A stretch of 60,313 nucleotides of DNA. Origin: Chitinophagaceae bacterium (GTDB lineage Bacteria; Bacteroidota; Bacteroidia; Chitinophagales; Chitinophagaceae). The DNA is taken from NCBI GenBank assembly GCA_947447265.1, contig CANFKC010000031.1:1-60313 (forward strand). Direction: 5' to 3'. Both the position numbers and the translations under genes were made by a program. The notes beneath the pieces were generated by a model. The model worked only from the letters and a program-made list of their open reading frames with translations, was not told the origin of the DNA and made no database searches. The number at the start of each line of letters is the position of its first letter. Position 1 is the stretch's first letter. Shown here piece by piece: positions 17,884 to 54,001 of this stretch.

Positions 17884-18519
17884 TTATTTCGAATACTTTC
17901 TTTCAGCCAGGAACGCCCACGTAAACAAAAGTGATTGAATTATATTACAACAGCTATTGATCATCCATAAACCGCTCATCAACTCCTTTCTTTTGAATCC
18001 CCACATTAATTCGTGGCTACTAAAATAGTGCCCGGTAGAATACAGCATGAACATGCCGGTGAAGTATATAAATAAAGCTATTACACAAAGGAAAAAAGAG
18101 GATTCAAAAACGTTTTTTATTTGAGTGTCGACCATTATTGCATGCAATGAAAGGACACAATAAATGATGTATGAAAATGATAAAATTGCAGCGCTAACAC
18201 TACTAAAAGCAAAAAGGTTGCTGACTAAAAATGGTATTGCGATTAGAAACGAGGCTATACCGATAAGCATTACCCACCGGGGCTTTTTGTGAAGTTTACG
18301 ATAGAAATATGCACTAATTAAAAAGTACTCCAGAAATATGTAAATGTTGGCAAATAATTCCTGGTTCGGAGATTCTTTAAAAAGTCGGCCTATTAATATA
18401 TTAAAAACCAGGCCAAATGCGACATAGCACCACATCAGGCCTGGCTTTTTTTTAATACCTGACAGTAATGGTACTACTGGCGAAAATGTAGATATAGTTC
18501 CAAGAACTTCTTTAATCAT
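17884..18519 (-). CDS. Polytopic membrane protein, unknown
   Basis: The 211-residue protein has six or seven hydrophobic segments and short charged loops, for example YRKLHKKPRW (about 72-81). The ATG overlaps the stop codon of the upstream gene as TAATG, so translation is coupled. It sits 61 bp upstream of the histidine kinase gene on the same strand, and membrane proteins of this size often accompany such kinases in Bacteroidota. No function assigned. Confidence 0.65.
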   Translation of the reverse strand: MIKEVLGTISTFSPVVPLLSGIKKKPGLMWCYVAFGLVFNILIGRLFKESPNQELFANIYIFLEYFLISAYFYRKLHKKPRWVMLIGIASFLIAIPFLVSNLFAFSSVSAAILSFSYIIYCVLSLHAIMVDTQIKNVFESSFFLCVIALFIYFTGMFMLYSTGHYFSSHELMWGFKRKELMSGLWMINSCCNIIQSLLFTWAFLAERKYSK

Positions 18520-19082
18520 TATGGATAGAGTTCGCTTAACTCGCCTAGATACAAAACGTTATTCGTTGCATTTAGAGCAACTATTGCAACAGTGAATTTA
18601 CCATTGTCGATTGCTTTATAAAAATGAAATTTTACAACATCGTTATTAGTAATTTGGTTGATTCCACGAAAAAGATAAGCAGAGAATACTGGTATAACCT
18701 GCGCAGGTTCTCCTACAATTGTCATATCATTTGTAGTTTTATTTAGTTCGTCATATTCAAAATTTATTTTGCCAGTATTTGCAGCATCAAGTATTATCTG
18801 GTTCATCTCGGCAAGTAACCTTACTTCAGGAGATGGTACTGGAAATGGATGAAAATATGCTCCTACCATGCTTTGAAATTTCAGTTGTGTAATACTGTGC
18901 TGTCCTGCAATTAAAGCCAAATTTGGAGGGTCATCAGTAACTGCGCCTGACGGGTGTTCGGCGCTGAGCACATAGTCTCGAAAACCTACAAGAAGGCCGT
19001 CTTCCTTTGCTGGGTATCGTCCCTTAAAATCAACATAATGGTGTTCAGGAACAATTCGTGTTCCGCATTTGTCGTGGCTCAT
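18519..19082 (-). CDS. Hypothetical soluble protein
   Basis: I do not recognise this 187-residue protein. No signal peptide or membrane segment is seen. It starts MSHDKCGTRIVPEHHYVDF and includes AEMNQIILDAANTGKINFEY and a C-terminal beta-rich part ending LYLGELSELYP. It is coupled by TAATG to the membrane protein downstream. Both genes are visibly A/T-rich compared with neighbours such as moxR, which may mean later acquisition. Confidence 0.6.
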   Translation of the reverse strand: MSHDKCGTRIVPEHHYVDFKGRYPAKEDGLLVGFRDYVLSAEHPSGAVTDDPPNLALIAGQHSITQLKFQSMVGAYFHPFPVPSPEVRLLAEMNQIILDAANTGKINFEYDELNKTTNDMTIVGEPAQVIPVFSAYLFRGINQITNNDVVKFHFYKAIDNGKFTVAIVALNATNNVLYLGELSELYP

Positions 19083-44549: not shown

Positions 44550-44626
44550 CGCAATTGGATGCACGGCAGCGGTGCTATATAGGGGTGTGGATAAATAAGG
44601 TTTTTGTGTGAGTTTAGTCGTAAGTC

Positions 44627-44840
44627 GATAGTCGTAAGTCGTAAGCTGTTTTTGGGGAGTCGTGAGTTGTAAGTAGAAAGTCGTTAGTAGAAAGCGTTAG
44701 TGAGTAGATAGTAATTAGTATTTAGTAGATAGTCGTAAGTCGTAAGCTGTTTTTGGGGAGTCGTAAGTCATAAGTAGAAAGTCGTTAGTAGAAAGTAGAA
44801 AGCTTTGGTGAGTGCATAGTAATTAGTATTTAGTAGATAG
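44627..44840. repeat. Two tandem copies of a ~101-107 bp low-complexity unit
   Basis: GATAGTCGTAAGTCGTAAGC begins at 44627 and again at 44728, followed in both copies by TGTTTTTGGGGAGTCGT, AGTAGAAAGTCGTTAGTAG and TAGTAATTAGTATTTAGTAG. Each unit is itself a degenerate string of GTAAGT/TAGTAG words. Non-coding. Confidence 0.8.
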
Positions 44841-45370
44841 AAGTTCGTTGTAAGTGGTTGTTAGGTATATGGTGTTTAGCGTTTTGTGCGAACTGTGTCA
44901 CCCTTTCAGGGGTTTGAAAAATATCAATAGCTATTTTCTCTATAATAATGTCACCTCTTCGAGGTTGGAAGCCGGGAAGGGGGTGATATTTTTTTGGTTA
45001 TGCGGTTGTTAAACGGTGCCTGCAAAATTGAAAAACGTTTTGACAAGTTGCGGGTATTTTGATTGGAGGGTAGTGCGAATTGGGTATAATTTTTAGTTAG
45101 GCGATTGTTAAGTGCTGCCTGAAAATTTGCAAAATAGTTTTGGCGCCTGGCTAGTAAAAGGGGTGTATTTGTGCCGGTTGTAGTGGGTATTGGTAGTGCT
45201 TGCATGGGGCATTTTTGTGTAAAGTTGACGGGTTTTTATGAGGTGGCAAAACGTTATACCCACGATATGCAAATGTGATTTGGAATGAATGTGTTGTGGG
45301 GTGATTTAGAGGGGTTTTTGTGTGAGCAATAGGATAAATTGCCAATGCGGGAGATACTTTATGGGCGACA
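44841..45370. other. Intergenic region with diverged palindromes and repeats
   Basis: CACCCTTTCAGGGGT (near 44899) and CACCTCTTCGAGGT (near 44952) are REP-like. Two diverged direct copies (near 44990 and 45088) share TTGTTAA-x4-TGCCTG and TTTTGxC. A weak minus-strand frame here is repeat-derived, not a gene. Confidence 0.5.
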
Positions 45371-45377
45371 AAGTTTG

Positions 45378-45407
45378 TGGCACGTACGGGAATCGAAACT
45401 CCGTGAT
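45378..45407 (-). other. tRNA 3'-end remnant (candidate attachment-site scar)
   Basis: On the minus strand the last bases read TTCGATTCCCGTACGTGCCA then CA, an intact T-loop plus acceptor 3' side of a tRNA. The preceding T-stem is disturbed (CACGGAGT instead of CACGGG) and no anticodon or D arm precedes it. Such 3' remnants are left by integrase-type elements. It lies 46 bp from tRNA-fMet and next to the restriction-modification genes. No integrase is visible. Confidence 0.45.
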
Positions 45408-45452
45408 ACTTAAAACAGAACAGGAATACATAAAATGCATTCCTGTTACTTG

Positions 45453-45524
<72 letters not shown>

Positions 45525-45641
45525 CTATGCGGCAAAGGAAAGCTTATTTTAATAACTAAACATAACTTTTAGCTGCGCTTAACAATTGCGATAAAATGCT
45601 TTAAATATTGTTATTTTTGTTTCCTAAATAAAATTATAATA

Positions 45642-46619
45642 ATGGCAAAATTTATTACGGGAAAAGAATTGGAAGATGCAATTTGTAGCATTATTTGGGA
45701 TGCCAAAGAGAAATTAGTTATCGTTTCCCCTTTTATAAAATTAGATGAGTACTTTATTCAGCATTTTAATCATCATATAAACAATCCTAGTCTCCATTTA
45801 TTAGTTGTATTTGGTAAAAATGAGTACGATAAGAGTAAAAGCCTAAATTCCGCCGATTTTGAATTCTTTAAGCGTTTTCCAAAAGTCAGCATAGTTTACG
45901 TTGCAAATCTTCATGCTAAATATTATGGAAATGAAAGTAAGGGTGTCATCACGTCAATAAATTTATATGATCATTCGTTCAAAAATAATATTGAATTTGG
46001 TGTTTTTTCAGAAGTCACGATACTGAACAATTTCACTAAATCAACAGATATGGACGCATGGAATAAATGTATTGAAATTGCTGATGCTGGTGAACCAGTT
46101 TATATTAAGAGACCAATCTATAAAAAGAAACTAATTAGCCTTCTAGGAAAAGACTATACAAGCTCTTCCGTGATGTTGGACAATACTGAATCATTCTTTT
46201 CTTTTGGCAATAAGCAGCATACTAATAAGAAACTCACCGACTTCGCTGATGAATTAGATTTTGCAGAGATAGCTAGCGCTCGTCCAACAAGGGAAGATGT
46301 GAATCAAAACCAGGGCAAAAGCAGCCAAACTGAACAAACAAACCAAACTGAAGTCCCATATTTTGTTTCTAATAGAAATGATGCAAAAGTGGAAGGTTAT
46401 AATGGATTTTGTATAAGGACTGGAGTTAAAATTCCGTTTAATATCAAAAAACCGATGTGTTATGAAGCAAATAGAACATGGAGTTCTTTTGGTGATGAAA
46501 ATTACCCTGAAAATTTCTGCCACTTTTCAGGCGAGCCTAGTAACGGGGAAACAAATTATGGAAGGCCTATCTTAAAGAAGTATTGGAAAAAGGCACAGGA
46601 CGTGCATGGATTCAAATAA
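45642..46619 (+). CDS. PLD-family nuclease with zinc-ribbon-like C-terminus
   Basis: The 325-residue protein has an N-terminal phospholipase D-like domain with one HKD-type motif (NLHAKYYGNE: His91, Lys93, with Glu98 where Asp is usual) followed by ITSINLYDHSF. One motif per chain means a dimer would form the site, as in Nuc and BfiI. A Gln/Asn-rich linker (about 220-240) leads to a C-terminal block of the type found in PLD/zinc-ribbon proteins, but where C-x2-C pairs are expected it reads FCIRTG, MCYEA and FCHFSGE, so metal binding is doubtful. Sampled lines are about 25-32% GC, far below the flanks. It lies 39 bp before a second PLD gene and is part of the restriction-modification-like cluster. 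Confidence 0.75.
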   Translation: MAKFITGKELEDAICSIIWDAKEKLVIVSPFIKLDEYFIQHFNHHINNPSLHLLVVFGKNEYDKSKSLNSADFEFFKRFPKVSIVYVANLHAKYYGNESKGVITSINLYDHSFKNNIEFGVFSEVTILNNFTKSTDMDAWNKCIEIADAGEPVYIKRPIYKKKLISLLGKDYTSSSVMLDNTESFFSFGNKQHTNKKLTDFADELDFAEIASARPTREDVNQNQGKSSQTEQTNQTEVPYFVSNRNDAKVEGYNGFCIRTGVKIPFNIKKPMCYEANRTWSSFGDENYPENFCHFSGEPSNGETNYGRPILKKYWKKAQDVHGFK

Positions 46620-46658
46620 AGAGTGTATTTTAATGGTTAGTTTTATTTCATTGATACC

Positions 46659-47453
46659 ATGCAATTAGTTAAAAGTCCCTGGAGAGAATTATTTTATGAC
46701 TTATCTGCTTCTTGTAAGAAGTCAATAAAAATCACATCCCCTTATGTAAAAGATAATGTCGTGTCGCATTTAATGGTATCTAAAAAAGATGCTGTAAAAG
46801 TATCGCTGTTGACATCATTTAAATTAATGAATTACTATTCTGGTGCTTCTGACTTAAACGCACTTGAGCATGTTTTAAAAAATAGTGGCTCTGTAGGTAA
46901 CGTTCAGAAGCTGCACTCAAAAATTTACATTTTCGATGATGAGAAAGCTGTAATTACTTCGGGCAACCTTACCAATGGAGGGTTATCAAACAATTATGAG
47001 TACGGTGTGTATTTCGATGAAAGTGATATTGTTGCTAAGATACAACACGACTTTGTGTTGCTTTCGGAAGATGAAAACACTGGCAAAATTTCAATGTCAG
47101 AAATCAACCAAGCAAAGAATATTCTCTCCAATGTTCCAAAATCAAAACCAATTACTTTACCTGACATTGAGATTTATACAGGTTCGGATGACGTAGAAAT
47201 ATTTACAGGAGGGGTCGATAGCATAACGTCATCTTTAACTGGATGGAAGCTTGAAGTTTTCAATTGCCTTTTGAATATAAAAGGAACTGAATTTACGATT
47301 GCTGATATCAACTTATTTGTTCCCGTTCTCAGTAGGAGGTTTCCTGGGAATAATAATATCGAAGCTAAAATAAGACAGCAGCTTCAATATTTAAGAGATA
47401 TTGGCTTGGTCGAATTTCTAAGCAAAGGAAAATACAAAAAGCTTTGGGTTTAG
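46659..47453 (+). CDS. PLD-family nuclease with DpnI-like winged helix (candidate restriction enzyme)
   Basis: The 264-residue protein has an N-terminal PLD domain with a complete single HKD motif, LHSKIYIFDDEKAVITSGNL (His86, Lys88, Asp93, Ser102, Asn104). Residues about 205-264 (FTIADINLFVPVLSRRFPGN, KIRQQLQYLRDIGLVEFLSK) match the C-terminal winged helix of DpnI-type enzymes, which binds the recognition site. PLD nuclease plus DNA-binding domain is the architecture of BfiI/NgoFVII-like restriction enzymes. It is adjacent to a controller-type HTH gene and a methyltransferase. Cleavage specificity unknown. Confidence 0.75.
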   Translation: MQLVKSPWRELFYDLSASCKKSIKITSPYVKDNVVSHLMVSKKDAVKVSLLTSFKLMNYYSGASDLNALEHVLKNSGSVGNVQKLHSKIYIFDDEKAVITSGNLTNGGLSNNYEYGVYFDESDIVAKIQHDFVLLSEDENTGKISMSEINQAKNILSNVPKSKPITLPDIEIYTGSDDVEIFTGGVDSITSSLTGWKLEVFNCLLNIKGTEFTIADINLFVPVLSRRFPGNNNIEAKIRQQLQYLRDIGLVEFLSKGKYKKLWV

Positions 47454-47457
47454 AATG

Positions 47458-47739
47458 TCAATCAAATCCCTGACTAAAAAACTCCTCCATTGTCATATTA
47501 AATGCCGTCACGATTTTCAACAAGGTTGAAAATCGCAAGTCTTCGCCATGTTCATATCTGAAGTATTGACTGCGGTTGAAGTTGTGTTCGTATGCGAACT
47601 TTTCATGGCTTGAGTATCCTTTTTGTAGCCTTAATGTCTTAATTCTATTTCCCAATTTTTCCATGACGATTTCATTCCCGCTCGGAGAAGTATCGTTTCC
47701 GCTATCTTTTTTGGTACTCATGAGTGCTAAAATAGGCAT
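47458..47739 (-). CDS. XRE-family HTH regulator (candidate R-M controller)
   Basis: The 93-residue protein has a Cro/CI-type helix-turn-helix: KLGNRIKTLRLQKGYSSHEK, FAYEHNFNRSQYFRYEHGED and STLLKIVTAFNMTMEEFF. The start may be 47739 or the next ATG at 47721. It converges with the PLD gene (4 bp between stops) and is divergent from the methyltransferase, with a palindrome in between. This is the typical place for a C protein of a restriction-modification system. Confidence 0.8.
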   Translation of the reverse strand: MPILALMSTKKDSGNDTSPSGNEIVMEKLGNRIKTLRLQKGYSSHEKFAYEHNFNRSQYFRYEHGEDLRFSTLLKIVTAFNMTMEEFFSQGFD

Positions 47740-47742
47740 TTT

Positions 47743-47758
47743 GTAAACGTTCGTTTAC
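47743..47758. promoter_or_regulatory. Candidate operator palindrome
   Basis: GTAAACG-TT-CGTTTAC is a perfect inverted repeat immediately upstream of the XRE gene, in the divergent region shared with the methyltransferase. Confidence 0.5.
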
Positions 47759-47769
47759 CACTAATAAAC

Positions 47770-47796
47770 ATACTGCTAAAATAAATACTGCTAAAA
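47770..47796. promoter_or_regulatory. Direct repeat ATACTGCTAAAA x2
   Basis: Two copies at 47770-47781 and 47785-47796, 15 bp apart, between the regulator and the methyltransferase genes; possible further operator half-sites. Confidence 0.4.
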
Positions 47797-47860
47797 AGGA
47801 TCTTTTTTTGAACGCATTATCATAATTTAGATCTATTCTGCGTCTGCAGATGGGTCAAAA

Positions 47861-48739
47861 ATGTCGTTCGAGTTTTTCAAATCAACTGATGGTAATTTTA
47901 CGCTCCTGCATGGTGATACCATGCAGGTGTTGCCGCAGTTTGACCATAAATTCGATATGGTTTTTGCTGACCCGCCTTACTTTCTTTCTAATAACGGCCT
48001 GTCTATACAAAGTGGTAAAATAGTGAGCGTGAATAAAGGGACCTGGGATAAATCGCAGGGGTTTGACTACATCAATGCCTTTAACCGGCAATGGCTCAGC
48101 CTTGTGCGCGATAAAATGAAGGAGAACGGCACTATATGGATTAGTGGTACTATGCACAATATATTTTCCGTAGGGCAAGTACTTACTGAACTGGGCTTCC
48201 GAATATTGAATGTGGTTACCTGGACAAAAACCAATCCACCTCCTAACTTTTCCTGCCGCTTTTTTACCCATAGCACGGAGCAGATAATATGGGCGCGCAA
48301 AACAGAAAAAGTGCCGCACTATTATAATTACGAACTCATGAAAGAGCTGAACGGCAACAAACAAATGAAGGATGTTTGGGAATTGCCGGCTATTGCCCCG
48401 TGGGAAAAAAAGCAGGGTAAACACCCCACTCAAAAGCCGCTTTCGGTGCTGGTGCGTTCTATACTGGCCTCCACGCAACCCAATGCCTGGATTTTAGACC
48501 CGTTTGCGGGCAGCAGCACTACAGGTATAGCAGCTAACTTGCTAGGCCGCCGTTTCCTGGGTATTGATATGGAAGAGGAGTTTTTGAACATCAGCCGGAA
48601 CCGAAAGCTTGAAATTGAAAGCCCGGTTACCCAACGTTTATTCAAGGAGAAGATTAATGGATTTAAAACAAAGCAGCAGCTGGAATTATTTTTACTAAAT
48701 GAGCCAGCCAGCGCTTATAATGATGGTTTGGTGCTATAG
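47861..48739 (+). CDS. Beta-class DNA adenine methyltransferase (MboII/DpnA type)
   Basis: The 292-residue enzyme has the catalytic motif DPPY at residues 37-40 and the SAM-binding motif DPFAGSSTTGIAA near 212-224, i.e. the motif order of beta-class N6-adenine/N4-cytosine methylases. IQSGKIVSVNKGTWDKSQGF, TNPPPNFSCRFFTHSTEQII and GKHPTQKPL are characteristic of the MboII/DpnA-like group. Its ATG follows a 121-bp divergent region with candidate operators. It presumably protects the site cut by the neighbouring PLD nuclease(s). Confidence 0.92.
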   Translation: MSFEFFKSTDGNFTLLHGDTMQVLPQFDHKFDMVFADPPYFLSNNGLSIQSGKIVSVNKGTWDKSQGFDYINAFNRQWLSLVRDKMKENGTIWISGTMHNIFSVGQVLTELGFRILNVVTWTKTNPPPNFSCRFFTHSTEQIIWARKTEKVPHYYNYELMKELNGNKQMKDVWELPAIAPWEKKQGKHPTQKPLSVLVRSILASTQPNAWILDPFAGSSTTGIAANLLGRRFLGIDMEEEFLNISRNRKLEIESPVTQRLFKEKINGFKTKQQLELFLLNEPASAYNDGLVL

Positions 48740-49708: not shown

Positions 49709-52700
49709 TTACACATCGTCAATTTCTATGGTTTCGTCTTCTTTGGGGCGGACGAGGGTGTATTTGCGGGCGAAGTTGCACCAGTAGCAGTCGGGTTTGC
49801 CACAGCCGGTATTGAATTCGTGGTTCATGATGCTGGTGTAGCTTTCTTTCAGCTGCTGGCGCACCGTGGTTTCATCTTGCGGAAATACGGGAACAGTGAT
49901 TTGCTTGTATTCGCCGGTTTTGCTTTTTTGAAGATAATCGAAGCGGCCGGTTGTTACTTTCCAGTTTTTATCGTCGTTGTTTTCCAGCAATAGTTTGTAG
50001 AACACCATCTGGCGCCAGTAGTCGCCACCGTTGGGTTCTTTTTCGTTGGGTGGCGATGTGTTTGCGGTGGCCGATTTATCAGGGTCGCCGGTTTTGTAAT
50101 CTATAACGTTGCAGCTGTCGCCGTAAATCTCAATTTTATCAATTTTGGCGGTAACCGGTATGCCATCAAGGTTGTACCGTTTTACGGTATATTCTATCTC
50201 TACATTTTTATGCAGACTGTTTATGTAATGGTCGTAGTATTCGCCAAGCAGGGTAATGCCCTGTTCGGTACGGCGGTCCATCTGTATGCTGTTAAAGGCT
50301 GATGATTCAATATACATGCCGGTCTTGAACAGTTCGAGGAATTGTTCTTTGGTCGGGAACTCGCCCTGATTGGCTTTCATATCGAGGAAGAACCGCTCGA
50401 GCGCATAGTGCACGGCACTACCAAATGCAAGGGCATCATTTTTCTGGAAAGGCACGCGCAGCACCTGTTCGTAATAAAACGCCAGCCTGCACCGCAGGAA
50501 TTTTGATAGTGTGGTATAGCTCATGGTGAGCTGTTGCAGTAAGCGGTCTATCCATTGCGCATTGCCTGTTTTAATCACCACATCAGGAACAGGTTGCAAC
50601 GCCCATTGCAGGTGCTTTTCAATCTCGCCAACAGGCACTGATTGCCTGATGCGCTCTTCGGGTTGCGATATCTCATCAATAAATACAGATGGCTCTATGG
50701 GTTTGCCTGCATTATCGTTAGTGGCGTAAGATACGTATAGGTACTTTTTGGCACGGGTAAGTGCCACATAAAACAGGCGGCGCGCTACTTCGGCTTTGTA
50801 GGTTTGCTGCGTGTCTTCCTCGGTTGCGGTAATGGTATCGGGCATGCGGTAGTTGCCGCCGCCTGACTTTTTATCTTCCCAGAAATTTTTGGTGCAACCC
50901 ACCAGGAATACGTATTCAAATTCGTTGCCCTTGCTGCTGTGCGTGGTGTAGAAGTTTACGCCATTGTCGTTCTGTATTACGCGCTGAACAGGCACGGCAA
51001 TACCTTCATCGTTCATGCGCTCTACCATTTGCAGCAGTTGTACCGATCTTATTTTCGGGCTGCGGTCGTGGGCGTCCTTGACAAATTCGAAAAAGGAATT
51101 GAGCACCTGCATGAGCCATACGTGGTCGGTTTGTTGCAGCAGGTAGCCGACAATGCCGCTTTCGTAAACTATCTTTTCAATGAGCAGCGGCAGCGGATTG
51201 GTTACCTGTTCGCGTTCCCAGTTTTCGAGGTTGTTGCTGAGCCTGCGGATGGCCTCGGGGTTTTCGAGCTCAATAGTTTCCAGCGTGAGGTGGTTGGCAA
51301 TGAGCATGCGCCATTTGATGGCACCGCCTTTGCGGTTGGTTTGTATGTACAGCGCCAGTTGTGCAATATCGGTTGGCGCTATACCGAACCATGGGGCGTG
51401 CATCAGTTCAAACAACAACTCTTCGCCACTAAAGGTCTTTTGCTTTTCCCGAACGAGATAGGATAGTATATTCAGGAGTTGTTCTGCCAGTGGCAGTTCA
51501 AGTATGTTTACTGCTTTCTTTACATTGTAGGGAATGCCTTTGCGCTCCATCAGCGCAATAATATTAGCGGCCTGTTTGTGCTGCGCATAGAGTACCGCAA
51601 CTTCTTTTAGAGCTATGCCTTGCTTTTGCAGTGCCTCTATCTGCATGACCACATCGGCTTCTTCCTGCAAAATGTTATTGTACATTTTAACTACAGGGTG
51701 CACCGTCAGTCCCGGGTCTTTAAACCTGTCGTTGGCAGCGACAATCTGCTTATCAAGGTTTAGCTCTGAAAGTTGGTTTATGAGGCGTTGCTTGTTGTAT
51801 TGTATGGTAGCCATGGCCTTATCAATTATCTGCTGCGATGAGCGGTAGTTGTGGGGCAGTACTACAATTTTAATGGTCTCTTTATAGCGCTCGTAAAAGT
51901 CGATGATGTTACGGATACGTGCGCCCTGAAATTCGTAGATGCTCTGGTCATCATCGCCTACAACAAATATGTTGGGGTCTTCCCAGAAGGAGGTGAGCAC
52001 ATTGATGAGTTCGTTCTGTGCACCGTTGGTATCCTGAAATTCATCGACCAGTGTGAACTGGTAGCGCTCCTGGTAGCTCTGCAGCAGCCATGCATCGCGT
52101 TTAAAAGCTTCGAGCACCCATAGTATCATATCGTTGAAGTCGTACCTGCCGGCCTCCTTCATCTTTTGTTCGTATTGGGTGAAGAGTTGGGCGGCTGCGC
52201 GTGTGGTTTCCATGCGCTTTATTTCTTCATCAATTTTATCTTGCTTCAGGTCGCCCTTCTGGTAACCCTTTCCGTTTCTTTTATAGACGAATTCTTCGCG
52301 TTCCGGCAGCGCCCCTATGTAGGTATCAATAGCCGCTGATATGTTTTCCGGCGAAAGGTATTCGCGTTTCATAATATCGAACAGCTTATTGAGTTTGGGT
52401 ACATCGTAATAGATGTTGCCGCTGAGTTTGCGCAGCGAATGGCCCGATGGCAGGTTTTCGAGAATGCTGTATAGAAGGTCGGTGCGCTCCAGGTCGGTTA
52501 TAGGTTGCAAAGAGCGCAGGCTAAAGCTTTCACTGTTGTTTTGTATTATGCTATTACAAAAGCCATGGAAGGTATGGATGTTGACCTTGTGAGCAGCTGC
52601 ACCCATTATCTGCACCAGCCGTCGGCGCATGCTGTTGGTCGCTTCATCGGTATAGGTAAGGCACAATATTTCGTGGGGCTGCACCTGCGCATCGGTGCGT

Positions 52701-52855
52701 AATAGCGATGCAATACGCATGGAGAGCACTTCGGTTTTGCCTGTGCCCGGGCCTGCTATTACCATTACTGGTCCGTAGATGGTATCTACGGCTAGTTTCT
52801 GGCGTTCGTTGAGTTTATTATATCGTTCTAAGAAAACATCTTCGTTGATGGTCAT
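49709..52855 (-). CDS. UvrD/PcrA-type helicase fused to PD-(D/E)XK nuclease
   Basis: The 1048-residue protein is a superfamily 1 helicase with Walker A AGPGTGKT (34-41), Walker B VDEFQDTNG (near 270) and GDDDQSIYEFQGA, followed by a C-terminal RecB-like nuclease (DKIEIYGDSCNVIDYKTG near 955). One Cys in FLRCRLAFYYE (near 785) and three in CGKPDCYWC (near 1018) match the four-Cys iron-sulfur nuclease of AddB-type proteins. It likely acts as a one-chain exonuclease/helicase in repair or defence. ATG 52855 (MTINEDVFLE) is preferred over an upstream alternative because the sequence before it has no family similarity. Confidence 0.9.
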   Translation of the reverse strand: MTINEDVFLERYNKLNERQKLAVDTIYGPVMVIAGPGTGKTEVLSMRIASLLRTDAQVQPHEILCLTYTDEATNSMRRRLVQIMGAAAHKVNIHTFHGFCNSIIQNNSESFSLRSLQPITDLERTDLLYSILENLPSGHSLRKLSGNIYYDVPKLNKLFDIMKREYLSPENISAAIDTYIGALPEREEFVYKRNGKGYQKGDLKQDKIDEEIKRMETTRAAAQLFTQYEQKMKEAGRYDFNDMILWVLEAFKRDAWLLQSYQERYQFTLVDEFQDTNGAQNELINVLTSFWEDPNIFVVGDDDQSIYEFQGARIRNIIDFYERYKETIKIVVLPHNYRSSQQIIDKAMATIQYNKQRLINQLSELNLDKQIVAANDRFKDPGLTVHPVVKMYNNILQEEADVVMQIEALQKQGIALKEVAVLYAQHKQAANIIALMERKGIPYNVKKAVNILELPLAEQLLNILSYLVREKQKTFSGEELLFELMHAPWFGIAPTDIAQLALYIQTNRKGGAIKWRMLIANHLTLETIELENPEAIRRLSNNLENWEREQVTNPLPLLIEKIVYESGIVGYLLQQTDHVWLMQVLNSFFEFVKDAHDRSPKIRSVQLLQMVERMNDEGIAVPVQRVIQNDNGVNFYTTHSSKGNEFEYVFLVGCTKNFWEDKKSGGGNYRMPDTITATEEDTQQTYKAEVARRLFYVALTRAKKYLYVSYATNDNAGKPIEPSVFIDEISQPEERIRQSVPVGEIEKHLQWALQPVPDVVIKTGNAQWIDRLLQQLTMSYTTLSKFLRCRLAFYYEQVLRVPFQKNDALAFGSAVHYALERFFLDMKANQGEFPTKEQFLELFKTGMYIESSAFNSIQMDRRTEQGITLLGEYYDHYINSLHKNVEIEYTVKRYNLDGIPVTAKIDKIEIYGDSCNVIDYKTGDPDKSATANTSPPNEKEPNGGDYWRQMVFYKLLLENNDDKNWKVTTGRFDYLQKSKTGEYKQITVPVFPQDETTVRQQLKESYTSIMNHEFNTGCGKPDCYWCNFARKYTLVRPKEDETIEIDDV

Positions 52856-53048
52856 GTACTGCTTATTGGGAGGTATGAAGGTAAGGAATGTTTGTCTTTG
52901 TGAATTGCTGTTACAAACCTTCAACTTTGAATAGACACAGGTCGGCTTCGCACTGGCCGGCGCCGTTGACGAGGTGTTCATAAATTTCGAAGGGTGATAT
53001 TTTATTTCAAGATGTGGATTTTATGTCGGCACGCTATTGTTTATACCG

Positions 53049-53639
53049 ATGAAAACGGGTATATTTATGGAGAAACATTGTATTATGGAACTACCCGTAC
53101 TCACTGCCGAATTTGGCAACATTGAGGATAAGCAAGGAAACAGTTATGTGACTCGATCAGTCCTTGATATGAAGGGGGTTGACTTAAAAAGTGGTTCTCC
53201 CGAATTAATCATCGTGATGCTAAATCCGGGTAAATGTGAAATTAGAAATAATAGTGTCAGCTATGATTCTACGTTACATCGAATTAAAAATGTCATTGGA
53301 GGAAAAATTCAGTGGATCCGAATTATCAATCTTTCAGACGTTAGATGCCCAGAGAGCAAATCTTTCTACGAACTCGTGGAGAAATTACCCCCAGAGCATT
53401 CTATTTTTAGCGAGGTTCGAGCACTTGAATTAGATGAATATTTAAAGGGTTGCCAAAATGTCTATTTCGCTTGTGGCACAAGTAAAAAGGCGAACGAATT
53501 ATTGTTACTTGCAAAAAATTCTATAGAAAGCCGAAAGTTGAGGATATTAAATGAATCAGATGACTATTACCATCCGCTAATGAGACCAAACGCAGTAAGA
53601 GGAAAGTGGGAGAGCCAAGTGCTCCTTGCACTAAAATAA
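53049..53639 (+). CDS. DUF1643-like protein
   Basis: The 196-residue protein has LIIVMLNPGKC (about 53-63), the Asp-Ser-Thr stretch SYDSTLHRI and WIRIINLSDVRCP, then a YFACGTSKKANELL segment and YHPLMRP, the landmarks of DUF1643. The start could also be ATG 53067. It ends three bases before the truncated vapC remnant on the other strand, so it may have arrived by insertion there. Function unknown; the family is often found in accessory regions. Confidence 0.65.
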   Translation: MKTGIFMEKHCIMELPVLTAEFGNIEDKQGNSYVTRSVLDMKGVDLKSGSPELIIVMLNPGKCEIRNNSVSYDSTLHRIKNVIGGKIQWIRIINLSDVRCPESKSFYELVEKLPPEHSIFSEVRALELDEYLKGCQNVYFACGTSKKANELLLLAKNSIESRKLRILNESDDYYHPLMRPNAVRGKWESQVLLALK

Positions 53640-53642
53640 GGG

Positions 53643-53702
53643 CTAGAAATTCAAATTGCCCCTGATGGATGCTATAAGAACGTCGGTGTCAACTATAAAC
53701 AT
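53643..53702 (-). pseudogene. Truncated VapC-type PIN toxin (N-terminal 19 codons)
   Basis: Minus strand ATG at 53702 gives MFIVDTDVLIASIRGNLNF then TAG. The start is the classic PIN-domain N-terminus (M-x-x-V-D-T-D/N-V-L-I), with the first catalytic Asp, but the rest of the domain (about 110 residues) is gone. The frame overlaps the stop of the antitoxin-like gene as in vapBC operons. Confidence 0.7.
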
Positions 53703-53923
53703 CCTTCCGCACGTTTTATTGTATCATTTTTACGCATTGCTTTAATATCCATATCCCAGTCAGGTAGCGTATTAAAATAAGATAGATTGTTTGATTCAGA
53801 GGTTGCTTGACTAGTTTTTTTCTTGCGGCTTTTCACAGCTTTGACAGAGACGAAATCCAATTGCTTCAAGAAATTGATTACAAACTTTTCTTTGCCATCC
53901 TTTATTTCCAGTTCAAATATCAT
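53693..53923 (-). CDS. Antitoxin-like protein (VapB/DUF2683-like), orphan
   Basis: The 76-residue protein (MIFELEIKDGKEKFVINFLK, then QLDFVSVKAV and a Lys-rich linker) has the F-x2-FLK-x-LDFVSV pattern of Bacteroidota antitoxins. Its stop overlaps the start of a PIN-type toxin that is cut short, so it is the surviving half of a toxin-antitoxin pair. ATG 53923 is selected over upstream alternatives. Confidence 0.65.
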   Translation of the reverse strand: MIFELEIKDGKEKFVINFLKQLDFVSVKAVKSRKKKTSQATSESNNLSYFNTLPDWDMDIKAMRKNDTIKRAEGCL

Positions 53924-54001
53924 ATTATAAAGGTAAGAAATTCCACTCAAAATCAAGGGAAATGCATTTAAGAATTGGAATTGTGCTATAGAGCAAAACA
54001 A

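Follow-up and report, generated by a model that had tools for sequence, protein, structure and literature searches.

How could one cell carry a nuclease predicted to cut GATC-methylated DNA beside a methyltransferase that would probably write that same mark? The question is raised by four genes of a Chitinophagaceae bacterium (assembly GCA_947447265.1, here genome G000), on contig CANFKC010000031.1, of which a stretch of 60,313 nt was analysed and is called the window throughout. In order, they encode a PLD protein (PLD1), a PLD nuclease with a DpnI-type winged helix (PLD2, of the PLD-wH kind), an XRE-type regulator and a DNA methyltransferase (MT). Coordinates are given in the table, and relative loci in other genomes carry L numbers (L0xx and L193-L195). 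The reading that we favour, tentatively, is that the nuclease depends on methylation and that regulation keeps the linked GATC writer off; if this is true, the cell would need to keep a GATC writer and a GATC cutter apart.

The nuclease was the most readily assigned of the four products. Pfam profile searches with PLD2 yielded PLDc_2 (E 1.5e-14), the N-terminal PLD domain of RE_NgoFVII (PF09565, E 2.6e-6) and, at residues 195-261, the DpnI_C winged helix (PF17726, E 1e-23), with the PLDc_2 and DpnI_C scores far above their cut-offs. By sequence match, residues 182-262 aligned with solved DpnI (4esj, E 9.9e-16). The PD-(D/E)XK domain PF06044, which the DpnI of L036 matched at 1.8e-78, gave no Pfam match in PLD2. 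The active-site motif HxKx4D (H86, K88 and D93) was invariant across 12 aligned PLD-wH proteins, and a thirteenth, from L193, had Tyr in place of the catalytic His, although its frame (L193 4495-5325) was otherwise open. The winged helix of DpnI requires K229, R231 and Q235 (PMC4117772, PMC10101028). These residues corresponded to K237, R239 and Q243 of PLD2 in an alignment counted from the C-terminus, and were invariant in the 8 proteins of a first alignment and in 11 of the 12 of a second, these 11 being the ones with the winged-helix domain. By its domains, PLD2 is a member of the PLD-wH class of putative methyladenine-dependent type IV enzymes published in 2024 (PMC11037411), and it probably cuts Gm6ATC DNA. 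PLD2 would be a functional counterpart of DpnI, with the winged helix reading fully methylated Gm6ATC and the PLD domain cutting the marked DNA. Known PLD endonucleases are metal-independent, and PLD2 is probably a dimer because each chain has one PLD motif.

A tree was built from 26 winged helices, of which 25 were distinct (15 PLD-wH rows, the window entered twice, and 11 DpnI rows). In it, the PLD-wH and DpnI kinds fell on either side of a branch with 100/100 support, which, for a small sample of a short domain, fits one old fusion over repeated fusions. The DISARM protein DrmC was considered as an identity and rejected: many PADLOC DrmC models matched the PLD fold (best 1e-19), but NF038319 gave 38.7 bits with PLD2 and 21.7 with PLD1 against a curated cut-off of 133. 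Plasmid records matching PLD2 numbered 59, none over 80% of its length (20 listed of the 59 matched within residues 2-193), a single phage record matched at residues 195-262 only, and a pattern scan of the viral-contig collection found no PLD-wH relative.

The METHYLTRANSFERASE had orthologues at 73-78% identity at L051, at L050, where other putative nucleases and an XRE gene accompany it, and at loci beside DpnI or PLD-wH. The L051 operon reads D12, R.DpnII, x and MT, with R.DpnII recognized by PF04556 (2e-95) and an MT 73% identical to that of the window; because an MT orthologue stands in an operon with R.DpnII, GATC is the probable site of MT. On the Lactococcus (L. lactis) plasmid pSRQ700, the second methylase was likewise related to the window MT (58% identity) and the third gene again matched PF04556; we take this GATC operon to be the LlaDCHI system. 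By E-value, the best solved relative was CcrM (2.3e-55). MT is likely a DpnA-type methylase, the second methylase of GATC operons, and would act as a GATC writer; pneumococcal DpnA is reported to act on single-stranded DNA (PMC3573125). The genome assembly gave no match to a D12 methylase and two further N6_N4_Mtase matches besides MT. At L050 (3230-4597), D12 and a DpnA-type MT flanked DUF6996/DUF6997, a small frame with no Pfam match and an XRE gene, possibly another GATC restriction module.

The PLD2-XRE-MT trio was kept at L006, with identities of 76% for MT, 59% for PLD2 and, over 68 residues, 71% for XRE. Nonsynonymous divergence (dN) between the window and L006 was 0.19 for MT, 0.25 for XRE and 0.36 for PLD2, with synonymous divergence (dS) saturated, and MT was the most conserved of the three. 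A full-length MT linked with PLD2 and XRE in two genomes is also what an ordinary Type II system at GATC would present, in which the PLD-wH protein would have lost methyl dependence and would cut unmodified GATC, MT would protect the chromosome and XRE would time expression. We consider this main rival rather unlikely; the preliminary description had also named a Type II system. It gains from the R.DpnII operon in which the MT orthologue of L051 is found, from the depletion of GATC in G000 and the L006 genome (observed/expected, o/e, 0.66 and 0.31), and from the residues IEAK just before the reader residues in the winged helices of the window and L006, where most others have IKDK or ITDK. It loses by the DpnI reader residues kept in PLD2, and by the report that in all fusions tested the winged-helix (wH) domain was able to act as a Gm6ATC reader (PMC11037411). 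As a switch of methyl dependence, IEAK was rejected: the solitary, broken gene of L195 has it, and these positions also vary in the PLD-wH of L008 and in L076 DpnI, so that IEAK is no marker of MT linkage either.

The census of PLD-wH loci bears on the same rival. The 15 loci counted were the window, L006-L012, L034, L070-L072 and L193-L195; L013, the eighth match of the first search, was a different PLD protein and was left out, and L010 and L012 were closely related to each other. In overlapping samples, with the own genome included, the order search gave 4 full-length PLD-wH proteins among 14 genomes with any match, of 396, the class search gave PLD-wH in 4 of 395 genomes and the phylum search gave 2 PLD-wH among 9 DpnI_C matches in 395 genomes. 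MT was present at full length at 2 of the 15 loci, the window and L006, with some contigs short (the contigs of L008 and L009 measured ca. 4 kb and L011 was close to the end of its contig, leaving their neighbourhoods only partly visible). The other 13 had no full-length copy of this MT; a PLD-wH enzyme that stands alone and cuts plain GATC would be hard to tolerate unless another methylase protected the cell, and the class itself is thought to need methylated DNA, which makes the "Type II" label doubtful. Beside the substituted copy of L193, two more were defective, L195 being broken and L011 lacking the winged-helix end. L012 came from a metagenome-assembled genome (MAG) contig labelled Rickettsia typhi, a label that may be wrong, and its PLD-wH gene lay, by eye, between dus-like and NAD-synthetase-like genes, as in a Rickettsiales MAG.

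The many PLD-wH genes with no nearby methylase match would also suit the absence of any functional link, with MT of another specificity, unexpressed or a passenger, and PLD2 a solo type IV enzyme. The shortened or broken MT copies beside DpnI fit this explanation, as do other methylases, with sites that would not conflict, described beside wH nucleases (PMC11037411). We judge it unlikely, since the window MT has its full length and diverges least within the trio, sequence boxes before it are conserved between the window and L006, and the R.DpnII linkage of its orthologue indicates GATC specificity.

Gene order elsewhere placed the PLD-wH gene among known GATC systems. At L071 (224-3004), a D12 methylase was followed by PLD-wH, a DpnD-like stretch and MT. 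The DpnD-like stretch aligned from residue 1 of DpnD, at 54% identity over 46 residues with L036 and at 60% over 50 with L073, and was open to its stop, but had ATA at the start-codon position. The ca. 100 bp ahead of the L071 nuclease were 89%, 91% and 75% identical to those ahead of DpnI at L029, L073 and L036. The gene order and the shared upstream bases together indicated that PLD-wH occupies the place that DpnI has elsewhere. In one Bacteroidota locus type, R.DpnII, DpnI or PLD-wH stood between the D12 methylase and MT. This dpnC position was seen in the relative L071 and not in the window, which gave no match to dpnD or to a D12 methylase. At L007 and L034, PLD-wH lay directly behind truncated D12 genes, resembling Neisseria drg in the dam locus (PMC516771, PMC4269198 and PMC6789123). 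At L070 the neighbours of PLD-wH were, on one side, a full-length methylase that is more distantly related (47-49%) and, on the other, a truncated frame resembling, by eye, the MutH-like gene of L054. A phage-type Dam gene was near the PLD-wH of L008 and the DpnI of L035, L030 and L031 (tested with Pfam at L035, by eye at the others).

Where a methyl-reading nuclease occupied this slot, the nuclease-facing ends of the flanking methylases were changed or lost, which may remove self-conflict. The D12 end (RGKxTELLITN or like) was kept at L050, L051, L014, L015 and L056 and replaced beyond the same point at L071, L027, L036 and L073. The D12 of L033 kept a shorter form of the end, those of L075, L034 and L007 were fragments, and the piece before the DpnI of L074 was fragmentary by eye. 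On the other side, MT copies of the close group that shared a contig with DpnI or PLD-wH, the window and L006 aside, had no normal start in 8 of 8 cases. Homology to full-length MT began at residue 14-15 in L027 and L071, 7-12 in L074, 13 in L075 (where the gene was split in two), 35 in L036 (with stops), 59 in L028, 82 in L073 and 218 in L076; in L071, L074 and L075, residue 21 was where a usual start codon first appeared. A ninth truncated MT, from residue 59, was found at L052 on a contig other than that of its genome's DpnI, and six DpnI loci (L029-L033 and L035) had no such MT on the stretch examined. Full-length MT was found in the window, L006, L050 and L051.

At the window and L006, the conflict would be settled by control instead. 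The XRE gene was convergent to PLD2 and divergent from MT, and its true start is possibly an internal Met at 47721. The three xGCTAA boxes, candidate XRE operators, had the same spacing at L006 (7059, 7108 and 7123) as in the window, the first of the window boxes lying inside the listed XRE frame but ahead of its second Met. The XRE-MT intergenic region contained 2 GATC sites in 121 bp in the window and 4 in 171 bp at L006, against 0.19 and 0.38 expected from dinucleotide shuffling (P 0.0104 and 0.0002); both window sites were aligned with GATC at L006, where the other two were additional. The second window site had one base in common with the -7-like TAATTTAG, whose distance to TTTG was 16 in both loci, not the canonical spacing of the -7 promoter element. 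The PLD2, XRE and MT genes of both loci contained no GATC (synonymous shuffling, P 0.0004 for the window and 0.0134 for L006). The upstream or intergenic stretches counted in 15 other loci had a single GATC, in the 576 bp before the PLD-wH of L072, and the genes of other GATC systems were often GATC-free too. Regulatory control of MT would look like this combination of an XRE gene, boxes and a GATC-bearing region: MT would be kept off in normal life, repressed both by XRE and through methylation of the GATC sites in the promoter region common to the two genes.

Features of the locus and its surroundings in the window (positions in nucleotides)
Feature	Position	Strand	Description
PLD1	45642-46619	+	325 aa; N-terminal single-motif PLD domain (HxKx4E, by eye) and C-terminal conserved region containing Cys
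PLD2	46659-47453	+	264 aa; PLD-wH nuclease; PLDc_2 and DpnI_C profiles
XRE-type regulator	47458-47739	-	HTH_3 2e-4 (21.8 bits; cut-off of 23 narrowly missed)
MT	47861-48739	+	292 aa; beta-class DNA methyltransferase, likely DpnA type, full length; DPPY and DPFAGSSTTG motifs; N6_N4_Mtase 6.7e-58
xGCTAA boxes (three)	47725, 47774, 47789 (47725-47794)		spacing 49 and 15; candidate XRE operators
GATC sites (two)	47799-47802, 47830-47833		XRE-MT intergenic region
-7-like TAATTTAG	47823-47830		XRE-MT intergenic region
tRNA-Met	45452-45524		adjoins the four-gene cluster
Direct repeats, imperfect (GTCGTAAGTCGTAAG...)	44614-44865		between dnaN and tRNA-Met
UvrD-like gene	49709-52981		helicase fused to PD-(D/E)XK nuclease domain

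Genome-wide GATC content was consistent with pressure on this site in general. In 10 PLD-wH genomes, sampled over 32-160 kb each, the GATC o/e was 0.06, 0.09, 0.25, 0.31, 0.46, 0.49, 0.49, 0.49, 0.66 and 0.74, where the genome at 0.74 has a broken PLD-wH gene and one at 0.49 has no catalytic His; for L009, L010 and L012, GATC was examined over the locus only. Twenty control genomes with at least 15 kb had a median o/e of 0.96, with 5 of the 20 below 0.7, and the first 7 PLD-wH genomes differed from the controls (Mann-Whitney, P 0.0017). Of 25 controls fetched, 5 with less sequence were dropped, two having no expected sites and three lying below 0.7 (0.65, 0.63 and 0 of 12.3 expected); with these included, 8 of 23 were low. 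Kinship was not matched in the controls, and depletion (0.56 and 0.37) was also seen in two genomes of the same genus with no PLD-wH. The depletion of GATC was rejected as proof that a system is active; it supports GATC pressure in general and not the window locus. Two genomes with PLD-wH behind a truncated D12 were strongly short of both GATC and GGCC, with o/e of 0.09 and 0.00 for L007 (49 kb) and of 0.06 and 0.02 for L034 (45 kb).

Several points weigh against regulation as the means by which writer and cutter are kept apart. The keeping together of MT and PLD2 in two genomes, at the identities given above, would also be explained by an ordinary Type II pair. The promoter pattern depends on two homologous loci, XRE operator and promoter alike were guessed from repeats, and the GATC-free genes are unremarkable because both genomes are short of GATC. 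Among the altered methylases elsewhere, the D12 genes of L071, L027, L036 and L073 keep the catalytic DPPY, so that their loss of function is an inference, while 4 of the 8 altered MT copies miss just the first 6-14 residues, with L027 having ATG there, and may be active nonetheless; the removal of self-conflict at other loci by methylase alteration is therefore unproven. In E. coli, induced Aba4572I, a PLD-wH enzyme, was toxic in the absence of Dam and seemingly less so in its presence (PMC11037411).

The same components could also be assembled into a writer-reader trap, an extension that we think improbable. MT, once freed from XRE by infection, by single-stranded DNA entering the cell or because the repressor is lost, would mark GATC, and the PLD-wH nuclease would cut the invader first and the host if release persisted. 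Like DpnA, MT would work on DNA in single-stranded form, whether incoming or replicating. On the chromosome, the GATC sites crowded in the writer's promoter region would be read before any others, and a feedback loop would close.

The preliminary description had proposed that the two PLD proteins cooperate, one cutting and the other assisting. They are adjacent on the same strand, 39 bp apart in an AT-rich stretch, with one motif each. PLD1, however, gave no match at the L006 locus (9.1 kb), so that of the four genes expected to stay together elsewhere the trio alone was kept there, and none in any of the 4 other PLD-wH genomes that were searched (three of them at least 90% complete), which leaves cooperation unsupported. 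Relatives of PLD1 were matched in 12 of 298 genomes of the order (own included), and in 8 of the 11 others whose neighbourhoods were read, none had PLD2, MT, DpnI or D12 nearby. With this lack of co-occurrence, cooperation is largely refuted and highly improbable; PLD1 is probably a neighbour, and not a partner, of PLD2, XRE and MT, belonging to a PLD family of its own. The observation that PLD homologues are regularly found apart from the methyltransferase, which the preliminary description had named as telling against a joint system, was made for PLD1 and largely also for PLD2.

In the Pfam search of both nucleases, the strong result for PLD2 was accompanied by a weak PLDc_2 match for PLD1 (E 0.0052, 17.1 bits), under the cut-off of 27. 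The C-terminal region of PLD1 was better conserved in matched pieces (43-65% identity) than the PLD part (27-44%); this region, residues ~245-323 (Cys residues, FCIRTG...), had no Pfam match of its own. PLD-domain matches of PLD1 occurred in 615 plasmid records, mostly enterobacterial, and a pattern scan of the viral-contig collection found no PLD1 relative.

The order and orientation of the four genes in the open reading frame list, and the domains found by profile search, agreed with the preliminary description, in which a restriction-type PLD nuclease, ending in a winged helix like that of DpnI, accompanies a methyltransferase and a regulator. The AT-rich setting that it gave for the PLD genes was likewise borne out, as G+C over 45001-48000 was 0.366, 0.348 and 0.364 in 1-kb steps and 0.42-0.49 in the next steps on each side; the window had further low steps, such as those at 18001-19000 (0.365) and 53001-54000 (0.366). 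All 11 same-genus genomes, counting the own one, had a match to the UvrD-like gene. An empty site was sought 3' of this gene and none was demonstrable, as 6 of 6 readable same-genus flanks differed from the window order and two more were too short.

The loci presented a testable pattern, in which a GATC slot exchanges R.DpnII, DpnI and PLD-wH and the flanking methylases are altered at their nuclease-facing ends. The window and L006 are two exceptions, each with a full-length writer and target sites in the region before it, and they make the self-conflict question of a PLD-wH enzyme beside a methylase directly testable with two small genes. Helbrecht et al. reported 27 predicted PLD-wH fusions, none of them purified; two were tested in E. 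coli and, uninduced, both were less toxic in cells with no Dam, the toxicity data being in part contradictory (PMC11037411). Among more than 1,000 wH fusions of all kinds, 87% had no methylase within three genes of the nuclease; other methylases were described beside wH nucleases with sites that would not conflict, and tight expression control was offered as one escape from writer-nuclease conflict (PMC11037411). In the open-access literature searched (subscription papers, preprints and REBASE lay outside the search), no description was found of PLD-wH kept beside a full-length DpnA-like methylase and XRE.

Among known systems, Aba4572I and CbaI share with PLD2 the PLD domain and DpnI-type winged helix, and the neighbouring methylase of Aba4572I, predicted at CGATCG, carries a potential for self-restriction (PMC11037411). 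By their published description, the window differs in that its methylase is DpnA-like, full length and kept with a divergent XRE gene and a GATC-bearing intergenic region in two genomes. The DpnI/dpnC-dpnD cassette and Neisseria drg resemble the locus in the winged helix, in the gene slot (L071) and in the truncated or altered D12 beside relatives, whereas the nuclease domain of PLD2 is PLD and not PD-(D/E)XK, and dpnD and D12 are unmatched in the window. DpnII-type GATC operons share their second, DpnA-like methylase with the window, whose locus is without R.DpnII and whose genome assembly is without a D12 match. BfiI and NgoFVII have the PLD fold (PF09565 match) with one motif per chain; the C-terminal DNA-reading domain of BfiI is B3-like, whereas the PLD2 C-terminus is DpnI_C and Pfam finds just the N-terminal PLD domain of NgoFVII. 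Birkholz et al. described PcaRCI and PcaRCII in Pectobacterium, where methylation of a promoter reconciles a methylase with a nuclease attacking its mark (PMC8989522). The likeness to the window lies in a methylase and a nuclease against its mark in one cell; there, a restriction-modification system is joined by a separate nuclease whose gene is silenced, whereas the window pair forms one locus with the GATC sites before the writer.

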